29,110 bases of DNA. It comes from a virus. The DNA is taken from positions 1 through 29,110 of the IMG/VR virus record IMGVR_UViG_3300042881_001585. One strand, given 5' to 3'. The translations under genes and the position numbers were made by a program. Below the pieces are notes generated by a model that worked only from the letters and a program-made list of their open reading frames with translations, was not told the DNA's origin and ran no database searches. Below are positions 190 to 29,110 of this stretch, in pieces. Positions within the stretch are counted from its first letter, which is position 1. The number at the start of each line of letters is the position of its first letter.

Positions 190-792
190 ATGAACGCAAA
201 ACAAGCAATTGATAAAATCGCAGAATTGTTAAAATTTACATTCAAGGCTGAAAAATTCTATACAACAAAATTAGAAGATGGAACTGAAGTAACTAATAAC
301 CTAGACGAAGATTTGAAAATTGGTCAAGTATTGTATGTTGTAGGTGAATCAACACTTACACCGGCACCCGCTGGTTCGCATATAACTCGTGAAAATCTTA
401 AGGTAACCGTTGATGCTGAATCAGTGATTATCGCAATTGAATCAGGTGACACCATCGCAGAAGATGCTGTTGAATCAAGTGCTGAAGAAATGGCAGAAGT
501 AGGTAGTCCTGAATCAGGAATTACTGAAGAGCCAGCATCAGGAGTTGAAAGTGAAAACGATGGACTAGACAGATTATTAGGATTACTAGGTCCAATGATT
601 GAGGAAATGACGAAAATGAAATCGGAAATGGAATCAATGAAAGGAAAAATGAGTGCTGATTTATTAGCATTAAAAAATGATTTCAATAGTTTTAAGAAAT
701 CACCAGAAAAGTTTTCTGTAATTGAAAAGAAAACTATGACTGAAACTTTTGAAGATTATAAGTTAGAACTTATTAAATCATTAAGAAAATAA
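190..792 (+). CDS. Putative capsid scaffold protein, short allele
   Basis: This 200-residue acidic protein lies directly upstream of the major capsid gene and directly downstream of the protease-containing fusion, the usual place for a scaffold. Residues about 30-85 form a small domain containing TLTPAPAGSH followed by a beta-like stretch. Residues 86-125 are rich in Glu, Ser and Ala and probably disordered. Residues 130-200 have a heptad-like pattern rich in Met, Glu and Lys (MIEEMTKMKSEMESMKGKM), as expected for a coiled coil that would bind the capsid protein. The start follows an A/T palindrome with no Shine-Dalgarno sequence. The related frame at 28459 has 66 more codons in the middle. 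The scaffold role is inferred from position, composition and coiled coil, not from a catalytic motif. Confidence 0.7.
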   Translation: MNAKQAIDKIAELLKFTFKAEKFYTTKLEDGTEVTNNLDEDLKIGQVLYVVGESTLTPAPAGSHITRENLKVTVDAESVIIAIESGDTIAEDAVESSAEEMAEVGSPESGITEEPASGVESENDGLDRLLGLLGPMIEEMTKMKSEMESMKGKMSADLLALKNDFNSFKKSPEKFSVIEKKTMTETFEDYKLELIKSLRK

Positions 793-823: not shown

Positions 824-1765
824 ATGGAAAAGAAAAAGTTTTCATTCAATTACGATTTAACAAACCTTCCTACATATAACTCATATGGTTCGGATATGTT
901 AATCAAGGCAATTTTAGGATTAACATTACCTAAATATGCTACAATCAGACCTAACTTAAAAGGAACAACTGAAAAAGTAGGTTTTGTAACAAACGATGTT
1001 ATCTTACAGGATTTATCTTGTGGATTTGACCCAACAGGTGATACAGTTCAGAACTTGGTTACCGTTGACTTATGTAATAAAAAAGTGAATCAACAATTAT
1101 GTCCTTATAGTCTCTACGATACATACTTGAGTCAGTCATTAACTAATGCTAACTTTCAAGAAAATGTTCCATTTGAAGAAGTTATTTTAACAGATATTTC
1201 AAATAGAATTGCTAATCAAGTAGAAAAACAATTATGGCAAAACACAACTACAACTGGTGGAACTTATGGTTCGGCTTGTTTCGCTGGTGTTGGTCAATTA
1301 GTTACATCAGGTAATGGTGCTACTCAAATCGCTTACACTGCTGCTACAGCATCAAACGGTTTAGATGTATTTTCTGCTATCTACCAAAACATTCCTGCGA
1401 ATGTATTACACAGAGACGATTTAGTTATCTTCTGTTCTTACGCTAACTACAGAGCACTTGTTGCTTCTATGAGAAATAGTTCATTCGTGAATTTATTTAC
1501 ATTAGATAGTGCTGGTTCTACTAGTGGTGAAGAATGGTCATTAATGTTACCAGGTTCAAATGTAAGAGTAATTCCTACAGTTGGTCTTGATGGTGTTAAT
1601 GCTTATTACGCAGGACCTGCTGGCTATTATATGGTTGGTATGAACAGCGAAATTATGACCGTTAAATCTATCTATGACCCATTTGAAGACATCGTTAAAA
1701 TTCAAGCGCATGTTACTTATGGTTTAGGTATTTTTGATGTGGCATCTTTCTGTCTTTGTAAGTAA
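824..1765 (+). CDS. Major capsid protein (HK97-type fold inferred)
   Basis: This 313-residue protein has no signal peptide or transmembrane segment and sits between scaffold and tail tube genes. Sequence features match the Bacteroidota siphophage capsid family as I know it. There is a basic N-terminus, a mid-region with a helix (NVPFEEVILTDISNRIANQV, about residues 112-131) followed by a Gly/Thr-rich loop, and a C-terminal part with a DDLVIFCSYANYRALV-like strand-helix and a late GMNSEIMTVKSIYDPFEDIV stretch. These are typical of HK97-like A- and P-domain elements. The length fits a capsid protein with little or no cleaved delta domain. It would form the icosahedral shell, with the upstream scaffold and protease guiding assembly. 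The start follows an A-rich leader. No competing capsid candidate exists in the window. Confidence 0.85.
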   Translation: MEKKKFSFNYDLTNLPTYNSYGSDMLIKAILGLTLPKYATIRPNLKGTTEKVGFVTNDVILQDLSCGFDPTGDTVQNLVTVDLCNKKVNQQLCPYSLYDTYLSQSLTNANFQENVPFEEVILTDISNRIANQVEKQLWQNTTTTGGTYGSACFAGVGQLVTSGNGATQIAYTAATASNGLDVFSAIYQNIPANVLHRDDLVIFCSYANYRALVASMRNSSFVNLFTLDSAGSTSGEEWSLMLPGSNVRVIPTVGLDGVNAYYAGPAGYYMVGMNSEIMTVKSIYDPFEDIVKIQAHVTYGLGIFDVASFCLCK

Positions 1766-3960: not shown

Positions 3961-5875
3961 AGTATTTTATAGAAAAAAGTTTAGTTATTATTTAGGGGAA
4001 CAAAGAGCCATAGATGATATCGTATTAGAATTTATTCCATTTCCAAGTCCTACTCCTACGCCGAACTATTGTATGTCTGGTCTTACAGATTTTACATTAT
4101 GGTTTTATACTGATTGTTGTGGAACTTATGTATCAGGAACTACTATGGGTTTATCTATCTGTTATGATAATAGATTTGCCAAAGATGGTATTGCTGGACC
4201 TTATGGTCCTTGTTCAACAAATTGTATTACGCCAACACCGACCCCTACACCGAGTATTACTCCAAGTGTGACTCCTACCCAAACTCAAACAGAAACCCCA
4301 ACCAGCACCCCTACAAATACGCCTACGACAACAATAACTGCTACTCCTACTAATACTGGAACTCCAACGGTTACGCCTACCAATACTCAAACGACTACAC
4401 CGACCGTAACTCCGACTAATACTCCTACAACAACTTTAACTGCTACTCCTACACAAACAGGAACACCTACTACTACGCCTACCAATACTGTTACTCCTAC
4501 CAATACTGTTACTCCAAGTATTACACCAACATCAACACAGACACCTACACCTAGTGTTACTGCTACACAAACAGCGACACCAACAAAAACCCCAACTAAT
4601 ACTCCGACACCAACAGTAACTCCAACTGTGACTCCAACTAATCCTATATGTGATACACTTAATGTTGCTTGGGACGGAGCACCTGATATGAGTGGTTTTA
4701 GTGGAACATATATTCAAGTTAATAATGGAGGTCCTGCTTATCTTAATTATAACTTAACGGGTGGAACAATCTTTAATATAACTTGTTCTACATTAAGTGG
4801 TGTAAGTTATACTGCTTGGGTTCAGACAACTGGATATGGATTAATTATTTATAGTCAATTAAATAATCAGTGGTTTATAACTAATCAGTTCGGAGCAAAA
4901 ACTTGTGGTATAGGACAAAATAGTGTTGTTAGTTCTGATTCTTGGAGTGGTGGATTTACTTATAATGGACAACAATATCCACCTTCAGCAACTGGAGATT
5001 TTGGTGCGGCAACAATATCATACCCTGATTGTCCAGGTTATGTAACACCGACACCAACAACTACTAAAACACCGACCCCTACTCCAACAACTACTCCATC
5101 ATTTGATGCTGATGCTGCGGCTTATTTATCAGCAGTATTACTTACTGGTGGAACATTAAGTCCTACAATATCAGCGGCAACCAATACATTATTCACTCAA
5201 TTAAAATCAAATAGTTTGTATAATGATATTGATGTTTTATATCTAATGGTTGGTCAAACAGCGGCATCAACAGCATTAAACGCTAAAAGAACAAAGAGTC
5301 AATTTGATATTACTTGGAGTAATGTTGCTAACTTAACATTTAATACTTCTGGTGTAACCAATAATAGTAATGGTTATGGAAACACAAACTATAATCCAAG
5401 TGTAGAAGCATCAGCAACAAATACATCGTGGGGAATATATCATACCGCAGGTAATATGGGTGGTGAAACATATTCATTTGGAGCAATAAGCACATCTGGT
5501 GGTGTTCGTGTAATTAACCATTATTTTGTTGGAGGTAATAATATGACCGTATATGGATATACTAATAGTTTTGTTAGTATGATTGCTACTGCTTCTGCTC
5601 AAGGTTCTTGGATAGGAACATTTAATTCATCAAACTTAAAGAATTTAGCAAGAAATGGTGTTAGTTCTACCGCTGTAAGTGCTATTGGAACAGTAGCATT
5701 ACCAACCGTAACAAATTATCTATTTACCGCTAACTTAAATAATTCTGCTTATAATCCTTTTACAGGAAGGATACAAAGTTTCTTTATAACAAAGTATTTA
5801 ACACCAGCACAAGTTACAACTTTTGATACTATTATAAACACATTCCAAACATCATTAGGTAGGAACTTTTATTAA
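3953..5875 (+). CDS. Large modular adhesin-like virion protein with long Pro/Thr stalk
   Basis: This 640-residue protein is built from modules. Residues 1-30 are a short start ([12 protein letters not shown]). Residues 31-38 are a small PSPTPTP linker. Residues 39-91 are a Cys-containing domain (DCCGTYVSG). Residues 92-231 are a 140-residue Pro/Thr/Asn stalk with a higher-order period of 34 residues. Residues 232-363 are a second Cys-containing beta-type domain. Residues 364-383 are another PT linker. Residues 384-640 are a C-terminal module ending [13 protein letters not shown] that is shared with the protein at 2430-3524. The design suggests a long extended spike or fibre with exchangeable domains. 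Catalytic motifs are not visible. The start overlaps the preceding gene by eight bases. Binding to a host glycan or protein is inference. Confidence 0.6.
4229..4645 (+). repeat. Long Pro/Thr stalk-coding repeat tract
   Basis: About 140 codons of TPT/TNT/VTPT type. It includes an exact 18-base tandem repeat (4478-4495 and 4496-4513) and a higher-order period of 102 bases: [11 protein letters not shown] at residue 120 recurs as [11 protein letters not shown] at residue 154. Slippage or recombination could change stalk length. Confidence 0.8.
5831..5859 (+). repeat. 29-base direct repeat, copy 2
   Basis: Identical to 3480-3508. It lies at the end of the 3953-5875 gene. Confidence 0.85.
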
Positions 5876-5894: not shown

Positions 5895-6332
5895 ATGGTT
5901 CAGATAGAGTCAGGAACATTTAATGAGGTGGTTGCCACTTGTTCAAGAAACAAAACCCTAACAGGTAATGTTACTTACTTGTGGTCAATGACGCACAAAT
6001 TAACAAAGGAGAATTGGAAGTTTATTCCATTTAGAATTGTCCCTTCAGTTGATTATGCTCCTTCATATGATTTATTTACAATGAATGTTATAGATACCTC
6101 ACCTGAAGTATTTACAGCATCAACATCTGCTAACACGGTAAATATACACTTGATTCCTGGTCAGTATTTTGTTAAGATATATGAGCAGTGTTCTACTACA
6201 AACTTAAACCCTATGTTGTCTTATGATGTGGTATATGAAGGAACAGCAACAGTAAATTACTCTGGTTCACCACAAAATGAAATAGTTTCATATAGCGGAA
6301 ACACAAATATATTTAAAGTATACAACGGATAA
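5895..6332 (+). CDS. Hypothetical virion protein near tail-fibre cluster
   Basis: This 145-residue protein is rich in beta-type residues. It has an IPFRIVPS stretch at about residues 45-52 and a late motif IPGQYFVKIYEQ (about residues 102-113) followed by a YDVVYEGTATV strand. The GQYFxKIYEQ...VYEG order resembles small proteins often found near adhesin and neck genes in Bacteroidota phages. Their function is unknown to me. The stop TAA shares its last A with the ATG of the portal gene (TAATG), implying translational coupling to the portal and perhaps a neck or connector association. No signal peptide or membrane segment is visible. Confidence 0.6.
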   Translation: MVQIESGTFNEVVATCSRNKTLTGNVTYLWSMTHKLTKENWKFIPFRIVPSVDYAPSYDLFTMNVIDTSPEVFTASTSANTVNIHLIPGQYFVKIYEQCSTTNLNPMLSYDVVYEGTATVNYSGSPQNEIVSYSGNTNIFKVYNG

Positions 6333-7402
6333 TGATTAAAATAGAAAACTTAAAATTCAACAAAGCAACATTATCATCTTTTAGTGAGGTGATAAGTAAG
6401 AATGTGCCATTTATTAGTTGGGGTATGGATAACCAATTCGTTAATGAATTATATCTATTAAACGATGCCTCACCAATACAAAACGCTTGTGTTAGAAGCA
6501 AGGTAGATAATGCTGTTGGTATGGGATACATTACGGACTATAAGATTAACTTAAAAGAAAATCTTAACGATATATCCAAGAAAATATTCTATGAGTTTAT
6601 AACGACTGGAAATGTGTTTTTGGAAGTAGTGTGGAAACAGGATAGAAGCCAAGGATTAGCAGGTATGTATTTAATCCCATCAAGATATATCAGGTTACAC
6701 AAACCCGAAGAAATGGGTGGTGATGTTACCAAATATCTTTATTGTCGTGACTGGGCAAATTGGAGAAAAGCAGGTATGGTTGAGTTCAGTGAGTTCAACC
6801 CATTAAACTTTACAGACAGACAGATTATTCATATTAAGAATTATCAATCAGGTTATGATTATTATGGAGTTCCTGATTGGTTATCAGTAATCAACGATGT
6901 AAGATTGAACCACGAAATTACTGTTTATAATTTAAGCCATATTCAGAATGGACTTAACCCATCATTATGGGTTCACTTTAATGTTCCTGCTCCTGATTCA
7001 CAGAACGAACAGAATCAAATCCTTCAAGGAATAGAAAGTCGTTATGCTGGTGCTGAAAATAGTGGTCGTGTTATTGTATCTTATGGTGAGTCAGAACAAA
7101 AGCCAGACATTACTCAAATCGCATCAACAGTAGAAACAGGTTATTTTTCAGGGATATTTGAATTGGTTCAAAAACAGATATTGGCTGGTCATAAAATTAT
7201 TGATGGTTCGTTAATTGGATTACCAAATCCTGGTGGTTTTACATCATCAGCAGACCAATTGGAAACAACATATAAGTTATTTATGAATACATCAATTAAA
7301 CCATTACAAAACTTTATCAATAGAGAATTGAAACCAGTTATTCAACTTATCTATCCTGACCAAGAAATAAGTTTAGTGATAGAACAAAACCAAATATTAT
7401 AA
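6332..7402 (+). CDS. Portal protein
   Basis: This 356-residue protein matches the phage portal (PBSX-like) pattern. There is an early SWGMDNQFVNELYLL stretch, then PIQNACVRSKVDNAVGMG (the common start of the portal core), a FITTGNVFLEVVW strand pair, and LIPSRYIRLH. Further on come IIHIKNYQSGYDYYGVPDW, with the tyrosine-rich GxPxW turn, and a C-terminal helix-rich part that would line the channel. Portals form the dodecameric ring at the capsid vertex through which DNA is packaged by terminase. The gene is coupled by TAATG to both neighbours. It lies beside the adhesin cluster and far from the large terminase (14523), an uncommon order. Confidence 0.88.
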   Translation: MIKIENLKFNKATLSSFSEVISKNVPFISWGMDNQFVNELYLLNDASPIQNACVRSKVDNAVGMGYITDYKINLKENLNDISKKIFYEFITTGNVFLEVVWKQDRSQGLAGMYLIPSRYIRLHKPEEMGGDVTKYLYCRDWANWRKAGMVEFSEFNPLNFTDRQIIHIKNYQSGYDYYGVPDWLSVINDVRLNHEITVYNLSHIQNGLNPSLWVHFNVPAPDSQNEQNQILQGIESRYAGAENSGRVIVSYGESEQKPDITQIASTVETGYFSGIFELVQKQILAGHKIIDGSLIGLPNPGGFTSSADQLETTYKLFMNTSIKPLQNFINRELKPVIQLIYPDQEISLVIEQNQIL

Positions 7403-8872: not shown

Positions 8873-9211
8873 CTATTTTTTAGACATTAAAGAAATAATT
8901 TTAATACAGGCTTCTTCAAGTTGGTTGTTTTTAACACAAGCCAATTCATCTTCTACTGGTTGAGTTGAAAATGATGTGAAGTATCCAAATACCTCTGTAG
9001 CATCTTTTGCTCTGTTAGAAGGTTTAAGAACCATAGCGTTGTCTGTTTTAATGTTTTCAATGATAAGTTCCCATACACCATCAAATCCCATATCAAAACC
9101 AATCTTGATGTTAGGTGATTTAGAATACTTTTTTGTTAATTTAGAAGCCAAGTCATTTAAGGTTTTACTTCCTTTAATACCATTCGGGGTATTGATTACT
9201 GCGTAGTTCAT
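8873..9211 (-). CDS. Hypothetical early protein
   Basis: This 112-residue protein of unknown family begins MNYAVINTPNGIKGSKTLND. It has a basic stretch (LTKKYSKSP, about residues 25-33) and a FDMGFDGVWELIIENI strand-like segment at about residues 39-54. It looks like a small alpha/beta cytoplasmic protein with no visible catalytic motif. It is the first gene behind one of the four strong early promoter modules (9237-9266) and is cotranscribed with the acidic gene at 8649-8867. Confidence 0.6.
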   Translation of the reverse strand: MNYAVINTPNGIKGSKTLNDLASKLTKKYSKSPNIKIGFDMGFDGVWELIIENIKTDNAMVLKPSNRAKDATEVFGYFTSFSTQPVEDELACVKNNQLEEACIKIISLMSKK

Positions 9212-9233
9212 AAGTTTTATTTTTTAAGTGTGT

Positions 9234-9788
9234 TTACAAAGATACTAATTCTTTTGATACTACCAAATTATTTTGAATTGGTTGTGGTGAGTTTCTATCT
9301 CTTTTACCATTAAAAATTGGATAATCTAAAGATTGGATAAGGATATGGGTATCAGGGATATTATATTTATCCGCAAGTTCCCACATCAACTCTTTTATTT
9401 GAATTAAAGATAAATGTGATGGTGCTGCCAATTTACCTTTGTGTGATTGTTCCCAAGAGTGTGATTGTTGGAAACTATCAAACATAATGTCTTCATTGTT
9501 TTCACTACAATGGAAGGCAAATCTAAAGAAATCACAAGGGGCTTCAGCACGGAAGGTTAAGAACTGAAACTCTGGATTACCACACAATTCTTTTTGTTCT
9601 TCAATAATTTCACCATACATAAATGGTTTCAATTTCTCAATCGTAAAATAATCAAAAAAACTTTTGTATTGAAACTTGTAAGGTAATATAGAATATTTTT
9701 CACCTTTGTATGTTACAACTACTGATACATCTTGTGGAAGGTTAGAGAAACGATTTACGATGTTTTGGATAATGTCTTGTTTTTTCAT
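9234..9788 (-). CDS. Hypothetical early protein
   Basis: This 184-residue protein of unknown family is mixed alpha/beta in appearance with a Cys, Phe and Trp-rich middle (APCDFFRFAFHC, about residues 108-119). There is no membrane segment and no recognisable active-site motif. It has its own promoter module (9815-9845). Its last residues (NLVVSKELVSL) are encoded by DNA that is at the same time the promoter module of the next gene, which shows that the reading frame runs into the promoter. The C-terminal extension may therefore be incidental. Confidence 0.6.
   Translation of the reverse strand: MKKQDIIQNIVNRFSNLPQDVSVVVTYKGEKYSILPYKFQYKSFFDYFTIEKLKPFMYGEIIEEQKELCGNPEFQFLTFRAEAPCDFFRFAFHCSENNEDIMFDSFQQSHSWEQSHKGKLAAPSHLSLIQIKELMWELADKYNIPDTHILIQSLDYPIFNGKRDRNSPQPIQNNLVVSKELVSL
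9237..9266 (-). promoter_or_regulatory. Early promoter for the gene at 8873-9211
   Basis: On the - strand TTG (9266-9264), 19 bases, then TATCTTTG (9244-9237) match the Bacteroidota -33/-7 consensus TTG-N(about 19)-TAnnTTTG. A short leader ending AAAAAATAAAACTT precedes the ATG. It lies inside the 3' end of the gene at 9234-9788. Confidence 0.8.
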
Positions 9789-9814
9789 AAGTTCTATTTT
9801 TTATTTGTGTCCTA

Positions 9815-9845
9815 CAAAGATACTAATTATTTTTTAATCTACCAA
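9815..9845 (-). promoter_or_regulatory. Early promoter for the gene at 9234-9788
   Basis: TTG (9845-9843), 20 bases, then TATCTTTG (9822-9815) on the - strand. This is the same module as at 9237, 10178 and 10775, with a leader ending AAAAAATAGAACTT. Confidence 0.8.
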
Positions 9846-9846
9846 A

Positions 9847-10152
9847 TTATTCTTGAAACTCTTTTAATTCTTCTTGTATTTGTTCCAATATTTCTTTGCC
9901 TTGTTCTATCCAATCATCAAATCCTGTTGGTTTATTACCAGTTAAAACATAATAATATGCTTCAGGTCCAAACTCATAATTGAATAAATCGTCCCATTCA
10001 CCAATAAGGTCTCCCCAATTTTCTCCAAATATTTCTTTTAATATCTCATCATAAATTGGTGAACTATCAGAACTACCTTGATAATCAGATAAACCATTTG
10101 TAAGTTCCATAAATTGAGATAATTGTGTGGGGGTAAATGTGTAATTTTCCAT
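9847..10152 (-). CDS. Very acidic early protein
   Basis: This 101-residue protein has about 23 Asp/Glu, four Lys and no Arg. It begins MENYTFTPTQLSQFMEL and has a Trp/Asp-rich middle (IGEWDDLFNYEFGPEAYYY). The C-terminal third is a Glu/Gln-rich helix (EILEQIQEELKEF). It has its own promoter module (10178-10207). The TFTP start resembles the acidic protein at 8649-8867, suggesting distant relation or parallel composition. The charge and early placement make a DNA-mimic anti-defence role conceivable; nothing in the sequence proves it. Confidence 0.6.
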   Translation of the reverse strand: MENYTFTPTQLSQFMELTNGLSDYQGSSDSSPIYDEILKEIFGENWGDLIGEWDDLFNYEFGPEAYYYVLTGNKPTGFDDWIEQGKEILEQIQEELKEFQE

Positions 10153-10177
10153 AATTTCTATTTTTTAAGTGTGTTTA

Positions 10178-10207
10178 CAAAGATACTAATTATTTTGATA
10201 CTACCAA
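10178..10207 (-). promoter_or_regulatory. Early promoter for the acidic gene at 9847-10152
   Basis: TTG (10207-10205), 19 bases, then TATCTTTG (10185-10178) on the - strand. The leader ends AAAAAATAGAAATT before the ATG. The -33 box and part of the spacer encode the final LVVSK of the upstream acetyltransferase-like gene. Confidence 0.8.
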
Positions 10208-10750
10208 ATCTTTTTTAATATATTCTAACATTTTTAAGTGGTCTAAAATCATATGGGTTGTCTTATTAGAATCTATTCTATCTACAACAAATCCAAACTT
10301 ATTAAAAAACTTAACTTGTTTCCATACAGGTGTAGTTTGAAGATTTTGACCTACTCCAACTGAACCAGTTGTTTCAAGAATAATTTTTGGTAATGTATGT
10401 GTTTCAATAATAAATTGTCTAATAGACGACATTACTAAAGACATAAGAAATGAACCATAACCTTTACCGTGATTATCAGGAGTAATCCATACACGAGTTA
10501 TGTCTAATGATTTTGCTCTACTCTTAATACGAAGGTGACTACCATCAGGTAATGATATTGTTGTTGCTTCACTTTCATATGTAAAATCACAGATATTAGA
10601 TATAAAATTATTTGAATCAATATCAACATATTCAATGTCTTTAGCAATATTATTTAGTTCGTTTTTAATAAACTTGTAAATATCGTTTTGTTGATAAACT
10701 TTATTAATCTTTTTGATTTTCATTACAGGTATTCCGTTGATGTTTTTCAT
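10190..10750 (-). CDS. GNAT-family N-acetyltransferase
   Basis: This 186-residue protein carries the acetyl-CoA binding pattern of the GNAT fold: a strand ITRVWITPDN followed by HGKGYGSFLMSLV (residues 84-106, the R/Q-x-x-G-x-G/A site as HGKGYG), then a FFNKFGF motif at residues 148-154 typical of the last helix and strand. The family transfers acetyl groups to amines on small molecules, RNA or proteins; the target here is unknown. The start at 10750 (MKNINGIPVMK) is chosen. A longer frame from 10804 would translate the promoter itself, giving the spurious peptide MVVSKLFVSLL. A phage early acetyltransferase could modify a host or defence protein, which is speculation. Confidence 0.75.
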   Translation of the reverse strand: MKNINGIPVMKIKKINKVYQQNDIYKFIKNELNNIAKDIEYVDIDSNNFISNICDFTYESEATTISLPDGSHLRIKSRAKSLDITRVWITPDNHGKGYGSFLMSLVMSSIRQFIIETHTLPKIILETTGSVGVGQNLQTTPVWKQVKFFNKFGFVVDRIDSNKTTHMILDHLKMLEYIKKDLVVSK

Positions 10751-13920: not shown

Positions 13921-14032
13921 AACATTAAAAACAGGTAGAACATCTTTTGGTAAAAAGAAAAAAGGGGTTCATACAAAGAAGGTAAATAAAAGAACACCAC
14001 TTACAAACAAATACAGAGGACAAGGTAGATGA
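13907..14032 (+). CDS. Very small basic protein (41 residues)
   Basis: The frame MAKTKTLKTGRTSFGKKKKG onward ends with TGA at 14030-14032. It is extremely Lys/Arg-rich and has no acidic residue. It overlaps the end of the small terminase gene by 14 bases and the methyltransferase-like gene by ATGA, so it is very likely translated by coupling. Such small basic proteins next to terminase genes could bind DNA or the terminase, but no family function is known to me. Confidence 0.6.
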   Translation: MAKTKTLKTGRTSFGKKKKGVHTKKVNKRTPLTNKYRGQGR

Positions 14033-14517
14033 AAAGAACAATAGCAAAAAATACATTATCATTTACGACATCAAAAACTATGATGTATTTAAGAACCCCA
14101 ACTGATATATGGGAATCAATATCAAAAGAGTTTAATTTTACATTAGATGCTTGTGCTTCAGATGAGAACCATTTGTTAGAAAAATATTACACAAAAGATA
14201 ATAGTTGTTTAGATAAAGATTGGACTGGAGAAGTAGTTTATTGCCACCCTCTATTTGATATTTACATCGGCAAGTTTGCTGAAAAGTGTTATAAAGAAAT
14301 GATAGAACACGATGTTACATCTGTTATGTTAATTCCATCATCAACTCACACAAGATATTTTCACAAATACATTTATAAAAAACCAAATGTGGAAATTAGA
14401 TTTTTGGAGAAACCTGTTAAGGGTTTTAGATTTTTACACGATGGGGGTATTGAAGATGACCCAACAAAAATAGGATACATAAAACCACTAATGCTGGTAA
14501 TTTTTAATAAAAAATAA
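14029..14517 (+). CDS. Phage Dam-like N6-adenine methyltransferase with altered motif
   Basis: This 162-residue protein follows the phage Dam-type pattern: RTPTDIWESISKEFNFTLDACAS (residues 22-44, with the DACAS that replaces DxGxG), then LLEKYYTKDNSCLDKDWTG (49-67), then a strand leading to the catalytic tetrad. At that position family members have NPPY; here residues 72-77 read CHPLFD, so the Asn and the second Pro are absent. The rest (VTSVMLIPSSTHTRYFHKYI, VEIRFLEKPVKGFRF) is well preserved. It may be inactive, have another role, or use an altered chemistry. It starts in an ATGA overlap and is followed by the large terminase. Confidence 0.7.
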   Translation: MKRTIAKNTLSFTTSKTMMYLRTPTDIWESISKEFNFTLDACASDENHLLEKYYTKDNSCLDKDWTGEVVYCHPLFDIYIGKFAEKCYKEMIEHDVTSVMLIPSSTHTRYFHKYIYKKPNVEIRFLEKPVKGFRFLHDGGIEDDPTKIGYIKPLMLVIFNKK

Positions 14518-25619: not shown

Positions 25620-28385
25620 ATGGCATTAAGAATTATTGATTTAGATATTGACGAATCCCTATCAGCAGATACAAGAGTATCGGAAATTGGTTGGGTATTA
25701 CAACCAGCAATAGAAACAGAGTTGATGTTTTTTTCCAACGATAGAATGGACGAAGCATCACTTAAAAAGGTAAAAGATTATATCTTGGAATATCAACCAG
25801 GTATGTTACCAGGTTATGTGAATTATGCTACTGGTGATACCAAAGATGATATGTTAATTAAACCTGTGTTGTTTGTTGAAAGACAAGCAGGTGAATCTGC
25901 TGATGAATATATTAGTAGATGTGTTGCTTATCACATCAACAACGAAGGTATGGAGTCAGACCAAGCATACGCTATCTGTAAATCAAAGAGTGAAAACTTT
26001 TATAAAGGACAAAAAATATCATTTGACTATGATGATACATTATCAACTGCTCGTGGTATGGGATTGGCTCTACACGAGAAATTTATGGGTGCCGAGTTAT
26101 ACATTATTTCTGCTAGAAATAATAAACAGAGTATGTTAGAAACTGCTGATAGGCTTGGAATACCACACAATAGAGTATTCGCTACAGGTTCTAATTTAGC
26201 AAAGATACAAAAGGTTAAAGACCTTAACATATCAAAACATTACGACAATAACGAAGATGTTATTCAACAACTTGGTAATAGAGGTATTCAATTTAGTTGT
26301 TCTTGTTTGGACGATATAAGTAACACAGGACAAGAAATCTTTGCCATAATGGAAAAGTATAGCCTGATAGGTTTTATTGATGGTAACCCCGTATTTTCAA
26401 CTCCTAATGAGGCAGAAATCTATGGTGAATCACTTGGTTGTAATGGACATCATAAACATATTGATGAAAATGGTAATGAGGTTTATATGGCTTGTGATGT
26501 TCACCCTAAAAAAGTTGAAGGTGAAATGTCTTTTGTATCAATTACAGATTATCCTCAATACATTACCGATACTGCTATTAGAGCAAAGAATTGGGTAGAT
26601 GAAAATGGATATGGTAGTTGTATGACTCCTGTTGGAAAATCAAGATTGAACCAACTTGCTAATAGAGAACCAGTATCATTAGACACCTTGAAAAGAATGA
26701 AAGCATTCGGTTCAAGACATAAGAAAGATTGGGAAAGTTCAAAGTCATTTGAAGATAATTGTGGTTATCTTGCTCTTGCTTCTTGGGGATTTGAACCATC
26801 AACTTATGATGATGTTATGAATTATTTGGATAGAGTAATAACTCGTGAAGAAATGTCTATCAACATAGAAATAGTTTGTGAACATTGTGGTTGGGAATGG
26901 GATTATAAAGATGGTGGTAATGACCCTTATGTTTGCCATAAATGTGGTTATGATAATAGAGAAACATTTGCTGAAGTAGGACCAAGAGGTGGTATTAAAG
27001 AAAGTGATAAAGCACCAAAATCAGATACACCAAACAAAAACCCCAAAGGTGAAGGTAGTGCCAAAGGTGATGCCTCAACAACAAGAGGTGCTGAAGTATC
27101 TAAAAGAGTTGAAGAAACATTACAAAATAAGAGTGATGACTTTAATGAAAAATACAAAGACAAACTTGGTTATGGTGTAAATCTTGGTATGTTAAAATCA
27201 GTTTATCAAAGAGGAGTTGGAGCCTATAACACATCACATTCACCAGCAGTTAAGTCAGCAGAACAATGGGCTCTTGCTCGTGTGAATGCGTTCTTATACT
27301 TGGTTAAAAATGGTAGACCTGAAAATCCAAAATATAATACTGACTATGATTTATTACCAACTAAACACCCAAAAAGAGAAGAATTATCTACAGAGTTTTC
27401 ATTAGAAGAATATTCTTTTGAGGAACTTGAAACGGTAAAGATGTTAAAGTTTTTATCTGAAACAGATTATGAAAAGTTTGAGGCAATTGTTGGTTCAATG
27501 CGTGGAGCAACAGAACAAGAAATCTACAAAAGAAATCACAAGTCACCAACAATATATTTCAAGTATGAACGAGTATTATCAGGAGCACCTGATAGAGAAT
27601 TCTGTTCATCAATAGAAAACAGATACTTTCGTAGATTAGAAATTGATTTATTAAGGGATACAAATGTAGAGTTTGGACACGAAGGTCAAGCATACTCAAA
27701 GTGGTTGTATAAGGGAGGACCAAATTGTGTTCACGCTTGGAAGAAATACTTATTCCAAAACAAATCAAAATCAGATGAAGGGTTCGCAGAAGGTAAGGCA
27801 GGTATGCCACCAAAGTCAATGCCGAATAATGGATACTACTCACCAGAAACAAAAAGAAAATCAGAGGTTGCTTATATCGTATCCCAACAGAATATGTCTA
27901 AACAAATGTTTAAGGCAGACGATGAACAACGAATGATTTATACTCCACTTATGTTACCAAACATTCTTATTCCAAGAATTGAAAATGATGAAACATATTT
28001 CGTAAGATTTAAACCAGAAGTAATTGAAAAGATTAGAAATAAGTTTATGATTGAGGGTAGGTTAAGAGCCTCAAACCTTGAACATAGTGACCAAAAGTTT
28101 AACGATATTGTTATGGTTGAATCGTGGATTGTTACTGGTCCAATGGACAAAGTATATCAATTAGGATTTACAGAACAACAAGTTCCATTTGGTTCTTGGA
28201 TTGGTGGTTATAAGATATTAGATACAGAAGAAGGTGATATGATTTGGAATGATTATATTAAGTCAGGAAAAGTTAAAGGTGCCAGTGTGGAGGGTGAGTT
28301 CTTATTAAAGTTCTACAAACAAGATTTTACAAAAGAAGACATTATACTTGAGGATATTATTAAGATATTGAATCAAGTAAAATAG
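25620..28385 (+). CDS. Multidomain head protein: HAD-like, zinc ribbon, DUF5824-like, Mu F-like, XkdF-like protease
   Basis: This 921-residue fusion has several parts. Residues 1-125: a head-morphogenesis-like start with DEYISRCVAYHIN and QAYAICKSK. Residues 133-215: a HAD-like phosphatase part with SFDYDDTLST, SAR (164-166) and a later HYDNNEDV. Residues 300-405: a segment with GSCMTPVGKSRLNQLANRE seen in other phage head proteins. Residues 420-442: a zinc ribbon with four Cys in CxxC pairs. Residues 488-585: DUF5824-like (VYQRGVGAYNTSHSP, QWALARVNAF, DLLPTKHP). Residues 640-715: Mu F-like minor head signature ending KGGPNCVHAWKKY. Residues 770-900: XkdF-like prohead protease with His822, Ser835 and KVKGASVEGEF. 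It sits just before the scaffold gene, where a protease is expected. Whether the chain is cut into pieces is unknown. Confidence 0.75.
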   Translation: MALRIIDLDIDESLSADTRVSEIGWVLQPAIETELMFFSNDRMDEASLKKVKDYILEYQPGMLPGYVNYATGDTKDDMLIKPVLFVERQAGESADEYISRCVAYHINNEGMESDQAYAICKSKSENFYKGQKISFDYDDTLSTARGMGLALHEKFMGAELYIISARNNKQSMLETADRLGIPHNRVFATGSNLAKIQKVKDLNISKHYDNNEDVIQQLGNRGIQFSCSCLDDISNTGQEIFAIMEKYSLIGFIDGNPVFSTPNEAEIYGESLGCNGHHKHIDENGNEVYMACDVHPKKVEGEMSFVSITDYPQYITDTAIRAKNWVDENGYGSCMTPVGKSRLNQLANREPVSLDTLKRMKAFGSRHKKDWESSKSFEDNCGYLALASWGFEPSTYDDVMNYLDRVITREEMSINIEIVCEHCGWEWDYKDGGNDPYVCHKCGYDNRETFAEVGPRGGIKESDKAPKSDTPNKNPKGEGSAKGDASTTRGAEVSKRVEETLQNKSDDFNEKYKDKLGYGVNLGMLKSVYQRGVGAYNTSHSPAVKSAEQWALARVNAFLYLVKNGRPENPKYNTDYDLLPTKHPKREELSTEFSLEEYSFEELETVKMLKFLSETDYEKFEAIVGSMRGATEQEIYKRNHKSPTIYFKYERVLSGAPDREFCSSIENRYFRRLEIDLLRDTNVEFGHEGQAYSKWLYKGGPNCVHAWKKYLFQNKSKSDEGFAEGKAGMPPKSMPNNGYYSPETKRKSEVAYIVSQQNMSKQMFKADDEQRMIYTPLMLPNILIPRIENDETYFVRFKPEVIEKIRNKFMIEGRLRASNLEHSDQKFNDIVMVESWIVTGPMDKVYQLGFTEQQVPFGSWIGGYKILDTEEGDMIWNDYIKSGKVKGASVEGEFLLKFYKQDFTKEDIILEDIIKILNQVK

Positions 28386-29110
28386 TTGTGGTTTTATATC
28401 ACAACAAAACAAAAGTATATTTATTATACATAAACAATAAATTTAAATAATTTAAATTATGAACGCAAAACAAGCAATTGATAAAATCGCTGAATTGTTA
28501 AAATTTACATTCAAGGCTGAAAAGTTTTATTCAACAAAACTAATAGATGGAACTGAAGTAACTAATAATCTAGATGAAGATTTTAAAATTGGTCAAGTAT
28601 TATATGTAGTAGGGGATTCAACTCTTACACCAGCACCGGCTGGCTCACATATAACTCGTGAAAATCTTAAGGTAACCGTTGATATTGAATCAGTGATTAT
28701 CGCAATTGAATCAGGTGATACCATCGCAGAAGATGCTATGGAAATGACTGAAGCAAGAGATGCTCAAGGACAACTTTTAGAATCTACTACTTTTGATGTT
28801 GGTGAAATGGTTTATCAAATTATGGAAAATGGTTCAAAAGAACCAGCACCAAATGGTGAACACCAAGTTGTATTAAAAGACGAATCTGGTAATGAAAATA
28901 AAATTAGAATTCAAGTTAAAGATGGTATCATCACAGAACGCTCAAATGTTGAAGAAATGGCAGCAGTAGGAAACCCTGAATCAGGAATTACTGAAGAGCC
29001 AGCATCAGGAGTTGAACGCGAAAACGATGGACTAGACAGATTATTAGGATTACTAGGTCCAATGATTGAGGAAATGACGAAAATGAAATCGGAAATGGAA
29101 TCAATGAAAG
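28270..29110. repeat. Right copy of diverged terminal repeat
   Basis: Aligns with 1-643 but carries 198 additional bases inside the scaffold gene. The window end corresponds to base 643 of the left copy. Most single-base differences lie between 28330 and 28740. The final stretch from about 29022 is identical to 555-643. Confidence 0.9.
28459..29110 (+). CDS. Putative capsid scaffold protein, long allele (partial)
   Basis: This frame is open from ATG at 28459 to the window end (217 codons). Residues 1-94 match the scaffold at 190-792 with several substitutions. About 66 extra residues follow, containing VGEMVYQIMENGSKEPAPNG and then a DGIITERS strand. The protein then returns to the shared EEPASGVE and coiled-coil start. 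The extra part repeats the layout of the first domain (G-x-V-Y strand, PAPxGxH turn, then a beta-like end). The 3' end is outside the window, so the total length is unknown; by analogy it would be about 266 residues. This is either another strain's allele or a second copy of the gene. Confidence 0.8.
   Translation, partial: MNAKQAIDKIAELLKFTFKAEKFYSTKLIDGTEVTNNLDEDFKIGQVLYVVGDSTLTPAPAGSHITRENLKVTVDIESVIIAIESGDTIAEDAMEMTEARDAQGQLLESTTFDVGEMVYQIMENGSKEPAPNGEHQVVLKDESGNENKIRIQVKDGIITERSNVEEMAAVGNPESGITEEPASGVERENDGLDRLLGLLGPMIEEMTKMKSEMESMK

Follow-up and report, generated by a model that had tools for sequence, protein, structure and literature searches.

The open frame and its surroundings

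The stretch of viral DNA analyzed here (29,110 nucleotides, referred to as the window) encodes a 921-residue protein in one open frame, at the position given by a preliminary description of the same DNA. That description called the product a head protein, and its location in the head-gene region agrees with this. Homologue comparison, profile searches and structure prediction divided the chain as follows; the last three lines give the neighboring head genes.

25620..28385 (+), whole gene: XkdF-type protease of 921 residues with inserted modules, single open frame
25620..25754 (+), residues 1-45: segment A, the constant N-terminal segment of the protease subfamily (IIDLDID...VSEIGWVLQPAIETELMFF), from homologue comparison
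25872..26003 (+), residues 85-128: short helical motif (SRC...AYAIC), usually directly 5' of the HAD module, from relatives and the model
26004..26327 (+), residues 129-236: capless HAD phosphatase fold, from the predicted fold and catalytic residues
26358..26510 (+), residues 247-297: DUF3721-like Cys/His module (GCNGHHKH...YMACDVH), PF12518 below threshold
26532..26804 (+), residues 305-395: phrog_2859-like helical module, phrog_2859 at E 2e-11
26539..27392 (+), residues ~307-591: exchanged cassette, with another phrog_2859-like module in L008, L009, L013 and L014
26865..26960 (+), residues 416-447: zinc ribbon (C420, C423, C439, C442), from sequence
26967..27389 (+), residues 450-590: DUF5824 module, PF19141, helical from ~495 on in the model
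27465..27854 (+), residues 616-745: Cys/His domain of the portal C-terminal type (earlier "Mu F"), phrog_33693
27900..28304 (+), residues 761-895: catalytic body of the XkdF protease, from PF14550, alignment and hhalign
190..792 (+): probable scaffold gene, following the protease gene when the contig ends are joined, with a variant copy at 28459-29110
824..1765 (+): probable major capsid protein, SU10_MCP below threshold and phrog_1623 (virion structural protein) at E 0.002
6332..7402 (+): portal protein of 356 aa, PF04860 at 43.7 bits and phrog_33693

The probable scaffold is weakly similar (E 0.025) to the C-terminal part of gp01 of Nonlabens phage P12024S. The two ends of the contig repeat each other (1-643 and 28270-29110, 94-95% identity), and one copy contains a 198-nt insert at 28744-28941. 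The genome is probably circular or circularly permuted, with a length of ~28.3 kb, and its ends are strain variants of the gene for the probable scaffold, one variant encoding an additional domain of ~66 aa. Elsewhere in the window, other genes contain diverged internal direct repeats (4229-4638 and 9207-10219, with ~65-69% and 85-91% identity), and a Dam-type adenine methyltransferase (PF05869, 66.7 bits) is encoded at 14029-14517, immediately 5' of the large terminase gene.

Since the contig ends represent two strain variants of one region and the frame is broken in the near-identical contig L007, we considered that the long frame might be an assembly chimera of separate genes. This is contradicted by long unbroken versions on independent contigs (L006, L024, L052 and others) and by purifying selection along the measurable length. 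L006 repeats the module order of the window protein, except that its zinc ribbon is undetected, and dN/dS is 0.07-0.2 for most modules. On these grounds the frame is no artefact, and a chimera is extremely improbable.

A single insertion site in an XkdF-type protease

Head maturation proteases, the annotation given to XkdF-type proteins, are mostly small enzymes with one purpose, which are incorporated in procapsids together with the scaffold. Our searches agree with the XkdF-like protease proposed earlier: PF14550 matches residues 762-893 with 40.4 bits, above its cut-off of 24, and an hhalign comparison of the protease body with the head maturation protease of psiM100 gives 98.4% (E 5e-15). 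In an alignment of 22 homologues, H822, E834 and S889 are invariant, so that E834 is a possible third catalytic member beside H822 and S889. The window protein thus resembles the Peptidase_S78_2/XkdF family (PF14550), exemplified by ORF12 of the Methanothermobacter phage psiM100 and by Nonlabens gp01, both in its head neighborhood and in the His, Glu and Ser that are invariant in its body.

The preliminary description placed the protease at the C-terminus. This holds for the catalytic body, but the first segment of the enzyme is N-terminal and everything else is inserted between the two. Segment A starts at residue 1-19 in 132 of the 140 complete relatives that have a protease body, and it is also present in Nonlabens gp01; at least three of the eight complete ORFs lacking it are broken or split genes. 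Among 132 non-redundant complete relatives, the gap between segment A and the body is 6-9 aa in 68 and 112-812 aa in 64, with no intermediate value, these counts being taken over related phages and inflated by kinship. When bare proteins are aligned with the relative L085, the alignment gap falls exactly where the HAD insert sits. Given this bimodal spacing and the position of the gap, we interpret the window protein as a single XkdF-type protease, in which residues 1-45 and the final 160 residues probably belong together. Nonlabens gp01 carries segment A directly before the body, without insertion, whereas ~700 residues separate them in the window protein. The protease therefore has a single insertion site, occupied here by ~700 residues of exchangeable modules.

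Proteins with segment A and the protease body display 31 module arrangements, the commonest single one being the bare form (~200 aa, 29 distinct). Module order is permuted in many relatives, the HAD module for instance lying 5' or 3' of the phrog_2859-like module, and some relatives carry modules after the protease body rather than inserted. Exchange is directly visible in L008, L009, L013 and L014, whose flanks are 98.6-99.4% identical to the window gene: the match ends at gene nucleotide 920 and resumes at 1773, and the cassette in between contains another phrog_2859-like module. The viral collections searched are mostly metagenomic, and scans of bacterial and archaeal genomes found no relatives at the sensitivity used.

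In three contigs (L067:6918-9395, L068:489-2966 and L125:2402-4874), the protease gene is divided into three abutting ORFs encoding segment A with the portal-type domain, a DUF5856 protein, and DUF3721-HAD-phrog_2859-protease body, in that order. There, the protease body and segment A would be made as separate chains that need to come together. In L230 (psiM100 ORF12, 252-263) and HK97 gp4 (141-156), a motif resembling segment A (ISxVxxPA) follows the catalytic Ser. This resemblance hints that the protease might be circularly permuted with respect to HK97 gp4 and psiM100, but the scores of the look-alikes are not significant.

The predicted structure of the full protein has a pLDDT of 76 and a pTM of 0.35, and this model does not fix the relative placement of the domains. 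Linkers with a model pLDDT below 50 lie between the modules, at residues 39-43, 62-84, 294-305, 445-489, 582-593 and 726-767. The helical motif consists of two helices in the model, 94-109 and 113-127. The match to phrog_2859 in PHROGs covers residues 312-385. PF12518 (DUF3721) reaches 17.1 bits in the window protein, under its cut-off of 27, and 37.1 bits in the homologous module of L067. No significant zinc-ribbon match was returned by a Pfam search of the window protein; the four cysteines of the ribbon proposed earlier nevertheless form a CxxC...CxxC pattern, and a homologous stretch occurs in phages L049 and L050. The DUF5824 call also stands, with 29 bits for PF19141 against a cut-off of 25. 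In deposited phages, DUF5824 is found on other proteins, one of them annotated as major capsid protein, and in the metagenomic relative L056 it is found on a lambda-type portal. Four parts of the chain had been overlooked: the N-terminal protease segment (1-45), the helical CxxAIC motif (85-128), the DUF3721-like Cys/His module (247-297) and the phrog_2859-like module (305-391).

The HAD module

A HAD phosphatase had been proposed at residues 133-215. Profile searches do not find it, as neither Pfam nor NCBIfam gives a HAD match in the window protein, while a fold search with the predicted structure does, and the catalytic residues are kept. The profile Hydrolase_3 reaches E 0.032 in one relative. 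Since single-sequence profiles do not detect the fold, structure prediction was required for this call. Sequence searches of the PDB with profiles of the HAD, the protease and the portal-type domain turned up no convincing relative, so that the HAD assignment rests on structure prediction and motifs.

The best PDB matches of the L085 model (342 aa, pLDDT 83) are KdsC/YrbI phosphatases, with a Foldseek probability of 1.00. This model also matches phosphoserine phosphatase (PSPH; Z 9.8, 2.3 A over 88 residues) and the 3' phosphatase of T4 Pnkp (Z 8.1). KdsC/YrbI phosphatases rank high again with the full-protein model, where the matched part is 128-242. VIA-align on the same model returned a mixture of HAD and Rossmann-like folds of other kinds, universal stress proteins among them, which cover only 128-242. 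HAD matches take up the list of the structure search, and the protease fold did not appear in it. The module is a minimal fold without a cap domain, and motifs I-IV are D136, D138 and T140; S164; K195; and D209 and D213, the first three being the DxDxT residues named previously. It therefore shares fold and motifs with capless HAD phosphatases such as KdsC/YrbI and the T4 Pnkp 3' phosphatase, but it differs from them in that no Pfam or NCBIfam family is detectable for it, in its size of ~108 residues and in its location inside a head protein. The chain thus does combine an XkdF protease with a phosphatase fold of the HAD type, as had been proposed.

The five residues scored (D136, D138, S164, K195 and D209) are all kept in 126 of 130 non-identical HAD modules, the four exceptions being two copies on XkdF and two on HK97-type proteases. 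One of these four, at L052:8970-9260, lacks motif I (FDW-RVLE) and is apparently a dead copy retained in the protein. Compared with close relatives, dN/dS of the module is 0.10-0.17.

In the collected viral contigs, the HAD family comprises 146 distinct proteins. Its carriers are mostly XkdF proteases; the others are HK97-type head maturation proteases (phrog_80), portals of the families phrog_33693 and phrog_12, and stand-alone genes of 97-148 aa. The HAD-module tree suggests ~15 changes of carrier, although with 97 columns its resolution is too poor to count independent transfers. In L283 and L310, a stand-alone HAD gene lies directly 3' of a bare protease; fusion is therefore not required. 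Among the deposited phages (50,697 records), no HAD of this family was detectable. Taken together, the conserved catalytic residues, the low dN/dS, the carriers and the neighboring genes support the view that the HAD would be an active enzyme placed in or near the head.

The wide variation in order, number and identity of the modules, and the exchange of cassettes between near-identical phages, would also fit a permissive loop in which neutral or selfish passengers are spread by phage recombination. We regard this as quite improbable, given that dN/dS is far under 1 in every measurable module, that the HAD catalytic residues are so widely kept, and that modules recur on two classes of head proteins, the same ones each time.

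The HAD and its companion modules might instead act only in head assembly inside the producing cell, without being delivered, for example by editing a phosphate carried by the scaffold, the capsid or DNA ends, or by binding metals or partners. Where the HAD is fused, its carrier is almost always a protein of head assembly, either the portal or the maturation protease, and a separate HAD gene beside a bare protease fits an assembly enzyme. However, many related phages have the HAD on neither protease nor portal, so that a core role in assembly is unlikely for this enzyme. We consider the assembly-only explanation a real possibility, though not the probable one.

The portal-type domain and the function of the inserted modules

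Residues 616-745 had been assigned to a Mu F-like minor head protein. This assignment fails: 13 family members gave no Pfam match, and hhalign to phage Mu gp30 reached 0.3%. The Mu F/SPP1 gp7 minor head protein (PF04233) was accordingly rejected by Pfam, PHROGs and hhalign. The segment matches positions 448-512 of the portal family phrog_33693 (E 3.8e-4), and in relatives the domain occurs at the C-terminus of recognizable portals, with C, G, C and H invariant and W nearly so. Judged by these matches, the "Mu F" segment is a portal C-terminal Cys/His domain. Some portals of phrog_33693 also bear HAD, DUF3721-like or phrog_2859-like modules. In the phage of the window, unlike these portals, the domain is in the protease and is absent from the short portal (356 aa, 6332-7402).

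Across 36 phages (50% non-redundant, both genes readable), the portal alone carries the portal-type domain in 19, the protease alone in 8, neither in 9 and both in none (Fisher's test without correction for relatedness, p=0.0008); one of the nine phages with the domain on neither has it on a third ORF. This pattern is another point in favor of a role restricted to assembly, and it points to an undescribed head function that either the portal or the protease may supply.

The preliminary description saw the whole chain as a head polyprotein that processes itself and has at least five activities, a Mu F minor head protein among them. The HAD and the protease do share one chain, and the flexible linkers could be cleavable. 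The number of activities was overstated, because only two segments are plausible as enzymes and the other modules are non-enzymatic. With the Mu F assignment lost, and with bare and adjacent-gene forms making the fusion optional, the polyprotein proposal appears unlikely. Its remark that such a fusion of many modules is unusual for phage heads does hold at this scale.

The closest known concept is that of the polyvalent proteins of phages and conjugative elements, in which fusions to portal and MuF are described and an assemblin-like peptidase, where present, is always at the C-terminus (Iyer et al., 2017; PMC5512222). As in the window protein, many unlike domains are joined in one phage chain. 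The window protein differs in that the protease itself is the carrier and the modules are inserted into it, and no zincin or other hub domain of the polyvalent type was found in it. A text search of PMC5512222 returned neither XkdF, HAD as a domain, nor phosphatase. Polyvalent proteins are packaged and injected with phage DNA; for the window protein, we infer this from the head-gene context.

In our view, the window protein is probably a procapsid protease, and exchangeable modules, the HAD among them, would be brought into the head at its insertion site. Residues 1-45 and 761-895 (His822/Glu834/Ser889) would form the head-maturation protease of a tailed phage, and one site between segment A and the body accepts insertions, here the helical motif, HAD, DUF3721-like and phrog_2859-like modules, zinc ribbon, DUF5824 and portal-type C-terminal domain. 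The protein would enter the procapsid through its role as protease with the scaffold, perhaps also through its portal-type domain, and the inserted modules would thereby be carried into the head. The protease presumably acts on head proteins and probably also on the disordered linkers of its own chain, which neighboring copies could cut as well; such cuts would free the modules as the head matures. Most likely, the HAD is active as a phosphatase, acting on its substrate in the head or after release into the next host cell, and its packaging or ejection is plausible from the gene context.

A more far-reaching form of this proposal, which we rate as rather unlikely, is a cargo port: the fixed protease site, and in an equivalent way the portal C-terminus, would take shuffled modules into the procapsid, where they would be freed and later ejected, the HAD being an injected phosphatase. 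If so, the injected HAD would undo host defence or repair nucleic-acid ends early in infection. 

A protease that accepts several hundred residues at a fixed point, with modules shared with portals, would amount to a natural head-loading system, and the exchangeable insert would offer a testable route for early-infection effectors.

The insertion site and the HAD module were found nowhere described in the literature and databases searched, and the open-access literature contained nothing on HAD or phosphatase domains fused to head proteases or portals. Such mosaics are nevertheless already in databases, since similar XkdF proteins are present among the BFVD predicted structures of uncultured phage proteins; other BFVD matches bear the names of HAD, zeta toxin, ParB or Dps domains.
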